Source: Nitratireductor sp. B36 (GTDB lineage: Bacteria; Pseudomonadota; Alphaproteobacteria; Rhizobiales; Rhizobiaceae). From it: 64,000 nucleotides of DNA. The position numbers and the translations under genes were made by a program. The stretch lies in the NCBI RefSeq assembly GCF_020833685.1, contig NZ_JACKZY010000002.1, positions 868,001 to 932,000 of the forward strand, given 5' to 3'. The number at the start of each line of letters is the position of its first letter. The first letter of the stretch is position 1. Shown here in pieces: positions 26,495 to 60,080 of this stretch. The notes below the pieces were generated by a model that worked only from the letters and a program-made list of their open reading frames with translations, was not told the DNA's origin and made no database searches.

Positions 26495-26579
26495 CGGGAT
26501 AGAAACCGGCGCTAACCAAATATGCAGTGTCCTGCCGGGAGCGCTTCCCTCGTCGCCCAACGCGCCCTAAACTGTGACG

Positions 26580-27152
26580 ATGGGGCTTGGAATTTTCAGA
26601 GTTGGAGCGGTTTGCATTGCGTCTGCACTCTTCTGGGTGGGCGATGCGAACGCAGAGCGCGTGTATCTGTGCAGCGGTTATGGCTGCTATTACAAGAAAA
26701 GCATGACGATCGACACGGCGATGAGGCAAAGACTGGTCGCCATCATGGCACCGGGCAAAGCATCTGCGAAGGCTGAACGGAAAGCCGTGGCGCAGGCGGT
26801 TCGCTATTTCGAAACCGTGGCAACCCAGACCATCGGTGTGCGGGACGGCCCGAAATCGGCTCCCGGCGGCGCGCGAGTCTACGGACAGATGGACTGTATC
26901 GACGAGTCGCGCAACACGCGCACGCTGCTACGCTATCTGGAGCGACACGGGCTTCTTCATCATCACACTGTTCAGCGAAACGCCGCGCGCGGTTTCTTTC
27001 TCGACGTGCGCTATCCGCACGCTACGGCGGTCCTCCGCGCGAAAAGCGGTGAGGAATGGGCGGTGGACAGCTGGTTCGAGCCAGCCGGAGGGGCACCGGA
27101 CATCATGAAGCTGGCCGAATGGAAAACGCGCGGTGTGCGAGGCGAACGATAG
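26580..27152 (+). CDS. Exported conserved hypothetical protein
   Basis: I do not recognise a named family. The 190-residue product starts with a cleavable signal peptide ending near GDANA-ERV (about residue 26). Cysteines sit in [11 protein letters not shown] and MDCIDES and could form disulfides in the periplasm. The central sequence, with [14 protein letters not shown] and a long C-terminal [12 protein letters not shown] segment, looks globular and enzyme-like, with several histidines ([14 protein letters not shown]). The ATG at 26580 is preferred over a GTG six bases upstream. It ends directly against the terminator of the minus-strand RNA cluster. Confidence 0.7.
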
Positions 27153-27156
27153 GCAA

Positions 27157-27277
27157 TAAAAAACGACACCCGCCGAGGGAGGAGGTTCGGCGGGTGTCGT
27201 TATGGGATGACCGGCAATTTTGGGAGGAGGAGGTTGCCGGTCTATTCGCCAGGGTTGGGAGGAGGTAACCCAGGCGA
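27157..27277 (-). ncRNA. CCUCCUCCC-loop RNA unit, distal copy with terminator
   Basis: Read on the minus strand this unit has three hairpins. The first (27246-27277) pairs two five-bp helices around one A-A type mismatch; the second (27209-27242) has a perfect nine-bp stem; the third (27162-27201) has a 14-15 bp stem followed by TTTTTT, a strong Rho-independent terminator. Each loop carries CCUCCUCCC (plus-strand GGGAGGAGG at 27177, 27222 and 27257). It matches what I know of the cuckoo/CcsR RNAs found downstream of DUF1127 genes in alphaproteobacteria. This copy ends the cluster, five bases from the stop of the convergent gene. Confidence 0.85.
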
Positions 27278-27330
27278 AATCTATGAAACTCAAATCCTGA
27301 CAGGCCCCATATGGGGAGGCTGCTGCCCGG

Positions 27331-27449
27331 AAACAACACCCGCCGAGGGAGGAGGTTCGGCGGGTGTCGTTTTGGGATGACCGGCAATTGGGAGGAGGAG
27401 GTCGCCGGTCGGTTCCTTCAGGATTGGGAGGAGGATAACCCCAAAGGAA
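27331..27449 (-). ncRNA. CCUCCUCCC-loop RNA unit, middle copy
   Basis: Three hairpins in the same order as the other copies: 27413-27449, 27379-27410 and 27331-27372 on the minus strand. The motif loops are at 27426, 27390 and 27347. Its stems contain five A/C oppositions on the plus strand that become G-U pairs in minus-strand RNA, so it folds well only in that orientation. The last hairpin is followed by only a short U stretch and then GC-rich sequence, so it is a weaker terminator and read-through into the distal copy is likely. Confidence 0.83.
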
Positions 27450-27497
27450 ACTCTAAAACTCTGTTTGGCGTGCCGTTCCCGGCTCTGCCGCCCGTTT

Positions 27498-27610
27498 CAA
27501 CACCTGCCGGGGGAGGAGGTCCGGCAGGTGTTGTTTTGGGTGACCGACAATTGGGAGGAGGAGGTTGTCGGTCATATTCGTCAGGATCGGGAGGAGGTGA
27601 TCCTGGCGAA
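27498..27610 (-). ncRNA. CCUCCUCCC-loop RNA unit, proximal copy
   Basis: This copy lies next to the DUF1127 gene. Hairpins are 27577-27610 (12-bp stem), 27542-27573 (perfect nine-bp stem) and 27498-27533 (perfect 13-bp stem), with the loop motif at 27589, 27553 and 27511. Relative to the distal copy at least four stem base pairs have changed on both sides while keeping pairing. The transcript probably comes from the DUF1127 promoter and is then processed into separate RNAs. Confidence 0.85.
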
Positions 27611-27630
27611 ACTCTTAATCTCAAATGCCC

Positions 27631-27771
27631 TTAGAGGGACTTGCGCGCCACGAAGGGGATGTCGCCGCGGGAGATGCCCAGATCGTTCAACTCGCGGTTG
27701 GACAGGCGGCTCAGCTCGGTGACGGTCTGACGGTAACGGCGCCAGTTGCGGTAATTGCGGATGATGTTCAT
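27631..27771 (-). CDS. DUF1127 small protein (CcaF1-like)
   Basis: This 46-residue protein reads MNIIRNYRNWRRYRQTVTEL, then SRLSNRELNDLGISRGDIPF and VARKSL. It has the Arg-rich N-terminal helix and the L-SNRELNDLGISR-DI core that defines DUF1127. In Rhodobacter, the DUF1127 protein CcaF1, encoded upstream of the CcsR RNAs, is reported to bind RNA and affect sRNA maturation and turnover. Here the gene is likewise directly upstream of three CCUCCUCCC RNA units on the same strand, with the first hairpin 21 bases after the stop. The ATG at 27771 has only a weak GAG upstream. RNA-binding in this organism is inference from that homology and position. Confidence 0.93.
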   Translation of the reverse strand: MNIIRNYRNWRRYRQTVTELSRLSNRELNDLGISRGDIPFVARKSL

Positions 27772-27817: not shown

Positions 27818-27846
27818 AAATAGTCCCATCCCGCTCAGCTTTGAAG
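27818..27846 (-). promoter_or_regulatory. Candidate promoter of the DUF1127/RNA cluster
   Basis: CTTCAA and CTATTT are separated by 17 bases on the minus strand, about 45 bases upstream of the DUF1127 ATG. The CTT-containing -35 resembles heat-shock sigma (RpoH) promoters, the type that controls the homologous Rhodobacter locus. The -10 is a partial match, so this is a candidate only. Confidence 0.4.
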
Positions 27847-28032
27847 TGCCAATGTTGCATGACAGCAATGCGATTTGTGCAATGCAGCATGGCGCTTTTG
27901 CGGCTGCGTTATGGCGGATGTTCGGCTTGGATATAATCGATTTATAAAAGCGTGGGGAAAATCAGGCAGCATGTTCGTGTCGGGCTGGTTGGCGAAAGGC
28001 ATAAAAAAGCCCTGAATCTTGCCAATTTTGCT
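27847..28032. other. Divergent intergenic region between DUF1127 and tRNA-Leu
   Basis: The gap between the DUF1127 start and tRNA-Leu is about 330 bases. It holds the candidate DUF1127 promoter, an AT-rich stretch with TATAAT at 27932-27937 on the plus strand without a good -35, and the tRNA promoter. I see no open reading frame with coding character. GC content is visibly lower than in neighbouring genes. Confidence 0.6.
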
Positions 28033-28277: not shown

Positions 28278-29714
28278 ATGCAGGTAACCGAAACTCTCAA
28301 CTCAGGGCTCAAGCGCGAACTTAAGGTCGTCGTTCCTGCAAAGGACATGGAGGCGCGCCTTAGCCAGCGTCTCGATGACGCGAAGGGCAAGGTCAACCTT
28401 AAGGGGTTCCGCCCCGGCAAAGTGCCCGCACAGCACCTGCGCCGCGTCTATGGCAAATCCTTCATGGCTGAGGTCGTGAACGAGATCCTTGCGGACACGC
28501 AGAGCATCCTGACCGACCGCGGCGAGAAGCCGGCCATTCAGCCGGAAATCTCCATGACCGAGGACGAAAAGGAAGCCGAAAAGGTTTTGGCCGGCGATGC
28601 GGACTTCGAATTCTCGATGTCTTACGAAGTCATCCCGCCGATCGAACTCAAGAGCTTCTCCGATATCAAGATCACGCGCCAGGTTTATGACGTCACGGAT
28701 GAGGAAGTCGAAGAGCAGGTCAAGCGCGTCGCCGATTCTGCCCGCACCTATGAGGTGAAGAAGGGCAAGGCCGCCGAAGGCGACAAGGTGAAGCTCGACT
28801 ATCTCGGCAAGATCGATGGCGAGCCCTTCGATGGGGGCTCTGCCGAGGATTCCGAGGTCGTGATCGGTATGAACCAGTTCATCGCTGGTTTCGAAGAGCA
28901 GCTTGTCGGTCTCAAGGCCGGCGATGAGACCACGATCAAGGTGACTTTCCCGGAAGAATATGCGGCAGCGCATCTGGCCGGAAAGGAAGCCGAGTTCGAC
29001 ATCAAGGTCAAAGAAATCTCCAAGCCCAATGATTTGGAGATCAATGACGAGACCGCAAAGCAGCTTGGCCTGGAATCGGCCGAGAAACTTCGCGAGATCG
29101 TTCGTGGCCAGCTCGAGAACCAGTTCGGCCAGGTAACCCGCCAGAAGGCGAAGCGGCAGATTCTCGACGCGCTGGATGAGGCATACAAGTTCGAAGCGCC
29201 GTCCAAGCTGGTGGAAGCCGAGTTCGAGAATATCTGGAACCAGGTGACCCGCGATCTCGAGTCTGCCGGCCGGACCTTCGAAGACGAGGACACGACCGAG
29301 GAAGAGGCGCGCGAAGAGTATCAGCGTCTTGCCGAACGCCGTGTGCGCTTGGGACTCGTTCTGTCCGAGATCGGCGAAAAGGCCGAGGTGAAGGTTAGCG
29401 ATGAAGAGATGCAGCGTGCGCTCATCGAATCGATCCGTCGCTATCCTCCGCATCAGCAGCAAGAGATTTACGAGTTCTATCGCCAGAACCCGCAGGCCAT
29501 GGCAAACATCCGTGCGCCGCTCTTCGAGGAGAAGGTCATCGACCATCTGCTCGGTGAAATCTCCGTCACCGACGAAAAGGTTTCGCGCGACGAGCTGATG
29601 GCGGATGATGAGGACGAAGCGGAGGCAAAGCCCGCGAAAAAGGAGAAGGCTGCTCCGAAAAAGAAAGCCGCTCCGAAGAAGGCTGCCGCCAAGAAGAAGG
29701 AAGAAAGCGAGTAA
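28278..29714 (+). CDS. tig: Trigger factor (ribosome-associated chaperone, PPIase)
   Basis: Trigger factor binds nascent chains at the ribosome exit. The 478-residue product has the N-terminal ribosome-binding domain with [17 protein letters not shown] (about residues 44-60), where the family signature is GFRxGKxP. The FKBP-like PPIase domain is about 155-245 ([18 protein letters not shown]), and a helical C-domain follows. The last 40 residues are a Lys/Ala/Glu tail ([13 protein letters not shown]...) beyond the E. coli length. The ATG is clear. A terminator follows, and the usual clpP/clpX/lon neighbours are absent. Confidence 0.97.
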
Positions 29715-45190: not shown

Positions 45191-45432
45191 AGAAGGCGTC
45201 TCCCGTAGTCCCTGTCTCGGCAGGGACGAGTTGAACGGTTCACGGCCTTATCCAGCGGGTATTGGAGAAAAATCTCAGCCCGGCCCGACAGTGGCGTGCG
45301 CGAAACTGGTACCCACAATGGCATCATGCCTTGTCGCAGGCCCACAGCGACCATTATATAAGTGGCTTGAAGCAGAAGGGAAGGTGCCGAAGCGACTTTG
45401 ATGTGTTTCGGTTGCGGCAGAACGGAAATTCT

Positions 45433-59834: not shown

Positions 59835-59884
59835 CATTCCTCCAGAATCGCACGCATGCCGCGATAAGCGACATGTTCGTGCCC

Positions 59885-60080
59885 CTCTGTCGGAAGCCTG
59901 AGAGACTCGCGCAGCCGGAACCCTGTCGACCACGCTTACACCTTCGGCGCGGGGATCGCTCCCCGACTTTCCAGAGTGTCTTGGCCCGTCTACGGTTCTT
60001 TTGCCTGAGAGATTTCGGGCGATTTCCCCTTCGGCGTCCGCTCCGGCACTTGCCGGTTTGGCCCTCTCCCGCAGCCAGGC
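59885..60080 (-). promoter_or_regulatory. Tandem glycine riboswitch upstream of gcvT
   Basis: Two glycine aptamers occur in series on the minus strand. Aptamer I (about 60003-60072) begins GCGGGAGAG, has CGCCGAAGGGG and ends TCTCAGGCA. Aptamer II (about 59885-59965) has the matching CGCCGAAGG and TCTCAGGC. They are joined by a short linker and end about 50 bases before the gcvT ATG. Glycine riboswitches usually turn on gcv expression when glycine is abundant. The expression platform is not obvious, but the Shine-Dalgarno region is close enough for translational control. Confidence 0.93.

Follow-up and report, generated by a model that had tools for sequence, protein, structure and literature searches.

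We favour, on balance, a reading in which the array on the minus strand of the window (the whole 64,000-nt stretch of Nitratireductor sp. B36 DNA analysed here) is an NfeR1/CIN1-type operon, DUF1127-ar14-ar14-ar14, that would be made as a single transcript from a two-input PhaR/LsrB promoter and would respond to PHB. That the array is a new alpha-r14 member in the CIN1 arrangement, a kind already known, is certain in practice. The predicted PhaR/LsrB two-input promoter and a further ar14 copy in the tail of a phasin gene, both derived from sequence comparison, appear to be new. The features of the locus are as follows.

27875..27886, minus strand: palindrome TGCATTGCACAA, matching the PhaR consensus TGCRNYGCASMA; identical in 10/10 genus genomes
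27868-27881, minus strand: LsrB-type word TGCACAAATCGCAT, overlapping the PhaR-consensus site; matches a published motif
27859-27871, minus strand: LsrB-type word GCATTGCTGTCAT; matches a published motif
27818..27846, minus strand: likely core promoter, from conservation; -35 CTTCAAA at 27840-27846, 16-nt spacer, -10 CTATTT at 27818-27823
27631..27771, minus strand: DUF1127 small protein gene of the CcaF1/SDP type, 46 aa; ORF with PF06568 match (66.4 bits, E 1.9e-18)
27495..27615, minus strand: alpha-r14 unit 1, three hairpins with CCUCCUCCC loops; RF02344 at 96.4 bits, fold, covariation
27331..27453, minus strand: alpha-r14 unit 2; RF02344 at 95.2 bits, fold, covariation
27161..27282, minus strand: alpha-r14 unit 3; RF02344 at 89.4 bits, fold, covariation
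27158..27200, minus strand: likely sole intrinsic terminator of the operon, formed by the third hairpin of unit 3 and a T-run; from sequence and T-run pattern

A preliminary description of this DNA had reported a 46-residue minus-strand DUF1127 gene followed by three repeat units, each with three hairpins and a shared motif in every loop. The gene corresponds to the ORF with the Pfam match listed above, and folding reproduced the units, the hairpins and the motif-bearing loops. All nine places of GGGAGGAGG were recovered, and these are the only ones in the whole 64 kb (exactly 9, against a mean of 0.54 and a maximum of 3 in 100 shuffles). The covariance-model search that had been proposed was run with the Rfam ar14 model (RF02344) and returned three tandem minus-strand matches of 89.4-96.4 bits, over the Rfam gathering cut-off of 58.8. 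Scores over the cut-off, three hairpins, anti-SD CCUCCUCCC loops and variable stems place the units in the alpha-r14 family. The likeness to the 16S rRNA 3' end that had also been claimed did not hold up across the genus, where the longer form GGATCACCTCCT (unit 1) is kept in only 3/10 genomes. A 16S origin of hairpin 1 was considered and rejected: GGATCACCTCCT occurs three times in the own genome (G000), and genus-wide it is found only in unit 1 of G000, G005 and G007, so that the likeness is probably a coincidence. Elsewhere in the window, a THF-II riboswitch (45200-45238, minus strand) and a glycine riboswitch (59877-59984, minus strand) also scored over their Rfam cut-offs.

The short DUF1127 gene beside cuckoo RNAs matches the CIN1 locus, an arrangement already described (named in PMC10253847). 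DUF1127 adjoins the array in all ten genus genomes searched, and the own genome and nine congeners (10/10 searched) all have the DUF1127 gene and the three tandem units, plus one or more separate copies. Eight named loci were compared with the 8 kb around the array; the closest were five Nitratireductor contigs (L084 85.6%, L054 84.2%, L058 82.6%, L051 81.2% and L075 80.0% over the aligned parts), followed by three Mesorhizobium contigs with 72-76% over the aligned parts. The array is adjoined by tig (28278-29714), which also lies beside ar14 in four loci from other genera (L011, L012, L019, L027). In S. meliloti, candidate C14 (SmrC14, later NfeR1) is placed between SMc02051 and tig (PMC2780559; naming in PMC7143759). 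The roles described for DUF1127 proteins are RNA processing (CcaF1, PMC10253847) and action on the sensor kinase PhoR (PMC12501420), and by analogy the protein encoded here may help in RNA processing or act on PhoR. A plus-strand ORF of 192 aa (26574-27152) is convergent with the array and has similar counterparts in at least two other genera (L014, L025); it gave no Pfam match.

The closest known relative of the array is NfeR1/SmrC14 of S. meliloti (alpha-r14, RF02344), with which it shares the family over the cut-off, the three hairpins, the CCUCCUCCC loops, the tig side and an LsrB-type promoter motif at a similar distance. It differs in having three tandem units behind DUF1127; its promoter lies before that gene, and its LsrB-type word is overlapped by a PhaR consensus. 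NfeR1, by contrast, is described as an sRNA of 115-123 nt driven by a promoter of its own, and the sections consulted on it mention no DUF1127. NfeR1 is reported to repress target mRNAs by anti-SD pairing (PMC10746234, PMC7143759) and to be activated by LsrB (PMC10746234); in the accounts consulted, its proven regulators in S. meliloti are LsrB and NtrC, and its targets are transporter mRNAs and ntrB (PMC10746234, PMC7143759, PMC8844928). As a target in the organism of the window, ntrB was not retained, since only GAGGAG, a partial match, precedes the own-genome ntrB start. According to the same literature, NfeR1 reaches high levels in defined glutamate/mannitol medium but is barely detected in rich TY (PMC10746234, PMC7143759), a pattern explained there by LsrB and NtrC; by analogy, PHB-linked control would fit it too.

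The pattern of T-runs suggests, at the level of sequence, that DUF1127 and the three units form one transcript: in all ten genus genomes searched, unit 3 alone is followed by five or more T in a row, the longest run after units 1 and 2 being 2 to 4. A generic terminator scan with loops limited to 3-8 nt did not list 27158..27200 and gave no minus-strand site. The single T-run terminator fits a polycistronic RNA like that of CcaF1-CcsR, which is described as being cut afterwards (PMC10253847, PMC8625941), and we infer co-transcription and RNA processing at the array.

Phylogenetic footprinting with ten aligned genus genomes delimited a conserved block lying upstream of DUF1127, about 46 to 125 nt away; further out the sequence diverges over roughly 100 nt before conservation returns near a tRNA gene. 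The block holds the palindrome TGCATTGCACAA. PhaR is a repressor that senses granules of PHB, the carbon-storage plastic of the cell. The PhaR consensus that TGCATTGCACAA matches was derived from footprints (PMC6201568), and PhaR-bound sites reported in S. meliloti, for example at phaP2, resemble TGCATTGCACAA (PMC12542648). The consensus occurs at one place only on both strands of the 64 kb; 1.42 matches would be expected by chance, and therefore the window alone proves little about the PhaR site. The two LsrB-type words correspond to the motifs published as TGCA-N6-GCAT (PMC10746234) and GCAT-N3-TG-N3-T (PMC8844928), and both forms are kept in 8/10 genus genomes, L020 and L024 deviating. Downstream of these words, the -35 CTTCAAA is identical in 10/10 genus genomes, and the -10 reads CTATCT in eight, TTATCT in one and CTATTT in the window. 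This core promoter resembles the published form CTTAGAC-N17-CTATAT; a generic sigma-70 promoter scan listed no minus-strand site at the array.

Scanning genomic contigs with the promoter word TTGCAWTGCACAANNYGCAWTGCTGNC gave 110 loci, 106 of them with DUF1127 within 400 nt downstream and 102 with anti-SD loops. For none of the eight loci lacking loops does the available downstream sequence exceed 423 nt, and three of these eight are among the four that lack DUF1127; in the fourth, L091 on a Mesorhizobium zhangyense contig, ar14-type loops directly follow the promoter word. The word thus seems to be dedicated to the DUF1127-ar14 operon. The window itself reads CTGCATT where the pattern requires TTGCAWT. 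Because TTGCAWTGCACAANNYGCAWTGCTGNC contains the PhaR consensus, these 110 loci are not evidence for PhaR.

In a draw of 101 family genomes (best matches only), selection by RF02344 alone, ignoring the promoter, yielded 104 ar14 loci; they come from 60 genomes that all represent different genera. The PhaR consensus lies within 800 nt upstream in 61/104 of these loci, against a mean of 0.8 and a maximum of 14 for 300 column-permuted consensi, and within 250 nt in 29/104 (permuted mean 0.3, largest 22). Counting both strands, there were 82 matches in 83,188 bp upstream of ar14 loci and 9 in 51,677 bp downstream. PhaR (AniA) is also known for a regulon that includes the sRNA MmgR, reported to be PhaR-repressed (PMC12542648); the consensus palindrome is shared and MmgR is a different RNA. 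No link between PhaR and any of NfeR1, cuckoo RNAs and DUF1127 was found in the literature consulted. Neither NfeR1 nor DUF1127 is named in the main text of the study on the PhaR regulon (PMC12542648), and PMC9230146 mentions DUF1127 and PhaR in separate places. The NfeR1 neighbour SMc02051, reported as PhaR-repressed (PMC12542648), was rejected as support for PhaR at NfeR1, the sites listed for it lying beyond the NfeR1 3' end.

The distribution of the site follows that of phaR itself. The gene (TIGR01848) was found in 88/101 family genomes, including the own genome (G000:C3:652594-652917, 144.4 bits), so that the locus combines a consensus site in its promoter with phaR in the same genome. 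Genomes bearing phaR have a site in 50/56 cases (60/98 ar14 loci); those lacking it have one in 1/7 (3/17 loci) over the cut-off and in 2/10 (4/26 loci) when all loci are taken. Conversely, 38/98 ar14 loci in phaR-bearing genomes have no site within 800 nt, and 6/56 genomes have none at any locus taken. The two phaR-less exceptions are G068, with one sub-cut-off locus, and G056, an assembly of 140 contigs with sites at 3/3 clusters scanned, from which phaR may be missing. Among DUF1127-led operons the site is present at 32/41 loci with phaR and 1/11 without (four of the 11 sub-cut-off; Fisher 5e-5, a test that overstates independence, the genomes being related). The adjacent GCYATGCA word is found within 350 nt at 36/98 loci with phaR and 13/26 without. 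As the PhaR word is rare without phaR while GCYATGCA persists, the two halves of the promoter separate, one being mostly lost without phaR. At one locus of a relative, L283 (G023:C34:65608-68032), phaR itself precedes DUF1127, a PhaR consensus and an ar14 unit, all packed into about 0.8 kb.

A fourth ar14 copy in the own genome (G000:C1:1253467-1253573; 58.0 bits, just under the cut-off) starts some 17 nt past the stop codon of a phasin gene (Phasin_2, phaP). This order of phasin and ar14 recurs in 10/10 genus genomes (the gap is longer in G002 and G005) and in two other genera (G016, G017), making 12 of the 125 loci examined. This figure is not a frequency estimate, since most of the remaining loci had been selected by high ar14 scores, which phasin-tail copies do not reach. 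The PhaR consensus is found in the phasin promoters of 9/9 genus relatives and of the own genome (TTGCAATGCACAA); in the own genome, TTGCANTGCACAA occurs three times, before the phasin gene, a MaoC-like dehydratase gene and an MFS transporter gene. A phasin mRNA with an ar14 RNA tail would be a second, independent link to carbon storage.

The array could instead be an ordinary NfeR1/CIN1 operon with an LsrB-like activator as its sole driver, in which case the PhaR match would be part or a by-product of the LsrB-type element. This is possible, though we hold it to be rather unlikely. Its strength lies in the LsrB-type words, which match published motifs, TGCACAAATCGCAT falling at about -70 to -57 if the TSS is taken to be 27811, compared with -72 to -60 in S. 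meliloti, and in the AbcR promoters. In the latter (ar15), the PhaR consensus is present in 11/70 loci and in seven of these (L314, L316, L318, L321, L323, L354, L355) it overlaps an LsrB-type motif at position -54, which shows that the consensus can be mimicked by an LsrB site. Some AbcR copies may also be PhaR-linked, or else the PhaR word there is a by-product of the LsrB site. At ar14 loci about half of the loci with PhaR matches (31/61) have every match overlapping one of the two LsrB motifs, and the site in the window is among those that overlap. Even so, the PhaR word is less frequent at ar15 than at ar14 loci (11/70 against 61/104; Fisher 1e-8, relatedness ignored), and the difference persists when LsrB-overlapping matches are dropped (5/70 against 30/104; Fisher 4e-4, relatedness ignored). 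The LsrB motif GCAT-N3-TG-N3-T lies within 120 nt in 51/70 ar15 loci, and the PhaR word is present in 9 of these 51, a control that is diluted by mixing LsrB-driven AbcR1 with RpoH1-driven AbcR2, as these are described in PMC8844928. An activator of the LsrB type alone also sits poorly with the scarcity of the PhaR word at phaR-less loci, three of the four being in G056, while GCYATGCA persists there, and with the presence of the PhaR word at phaP.

The preliminary description had proposed a set of stress-linked translational regulators or sponges in the cuckoo/CcsR layout with CcaF1, a proposal taken here as a CcsR/CcaF1-type stress operon under RpoH; the sponge role is conjectural. The cuckoo-type RNAs and the arrangement with DUF1127 were borne out, but the closest relative, on the tig side, is NfeR1/alpha-r14 and not Rhodobacter CcsR. 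Rhodobacter sphaeroides, the host of the CcsR locus, belongs to another order than Nitratireductor. Its CcaF1-CcsR1-4 operon shares DUF1127, tandem anti-SD hairpin RNAs and one terminator in the same gene order (according to PMC10253847), and differs in its RpoHI/RpoHII promoter and its four units; its RNA is reported to be processed by RNase E and CcaF1 (PMC10253847, PMC8625941). Control by RpoH is quite improbable here: the -35 CTTCAAA is one base off the RpoH1 form CTTGAA reported in PMC8844928, but the -10 reads ACTATTT/ACTATCT and not CCTATAT, LsrB/PhaR-type words are present and the tig-side synteny favours NfeR1. A general stress link, though conceivable, is thus not indicated.

Covariation was assessed in an alignment of 41 units, 40 of them distinct (30 from ten genus genomes, 11 from other genera). 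Two-sided change was found at 29/32 stem pairs (shuffled mean 14.9), and 95.1% of cells were paired (shuffled mean 82.0). The invariant columns lie nearly all in loops; a few relatives' loops differ at the motif edge, for example TCTCCTCCC in unit 3 of G003, and unit lengths differ by one or two bases between species. Open plus-strand frames do exist (e.g. 27311-27634), yet with such stems, loops and lengths the idea that this is plus-strand coding sequence or a functionless repeat holding no RNA genes can hardly be entertained.

Returning to the PhaR/LsrB-controlled operon, transcription would run once from the promoter upstream of DUF1127 to the terminator after unit 3, and the transcript would presumably be cut into a DUF1127 mRNA and three sRNAs, each about 120 nt long. 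Through its three CCUCCUCCC loops an sRNA would pair with the Shine-Dalgarno regions of target mRNAs and reduce their translation; the array as a whole would set nine loops in competition with ribosomes for these regions. With little PHB, PhaR would occupy the site overlapping the activator site and keep the operon low. As PHB accumulates under carbon excess and nitrogen limitation, the granules would titrate PhaR away from the promoter; an LsrB-like activator could then work, and the ar14-tailed phasin mRNA would be made along with the operon. In Nitratireductor, the binding of PhaR and LsrB, the direction of control and the targets are all predicted from sequence.

In the legume symbiont, control of alpha-r14 has been established through LsrB and NtrC, and the accounts consulted do not address drivers in non-symbionts. 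We see about an even chance that alpha-r14/cuckoo RNAs form a Rhizobiaceae-wide arm of the PHB response, in which PhaR-gated DUF1127-ar14 operons, together with phasin-tail ar14 copies in Nitratireductor and some relatives, damp the translation of uptake genes. If PhaR does gate alpha-r14, there would be a direct tie between carbon storage and a broad translation brake on nutrient-uptake genes.
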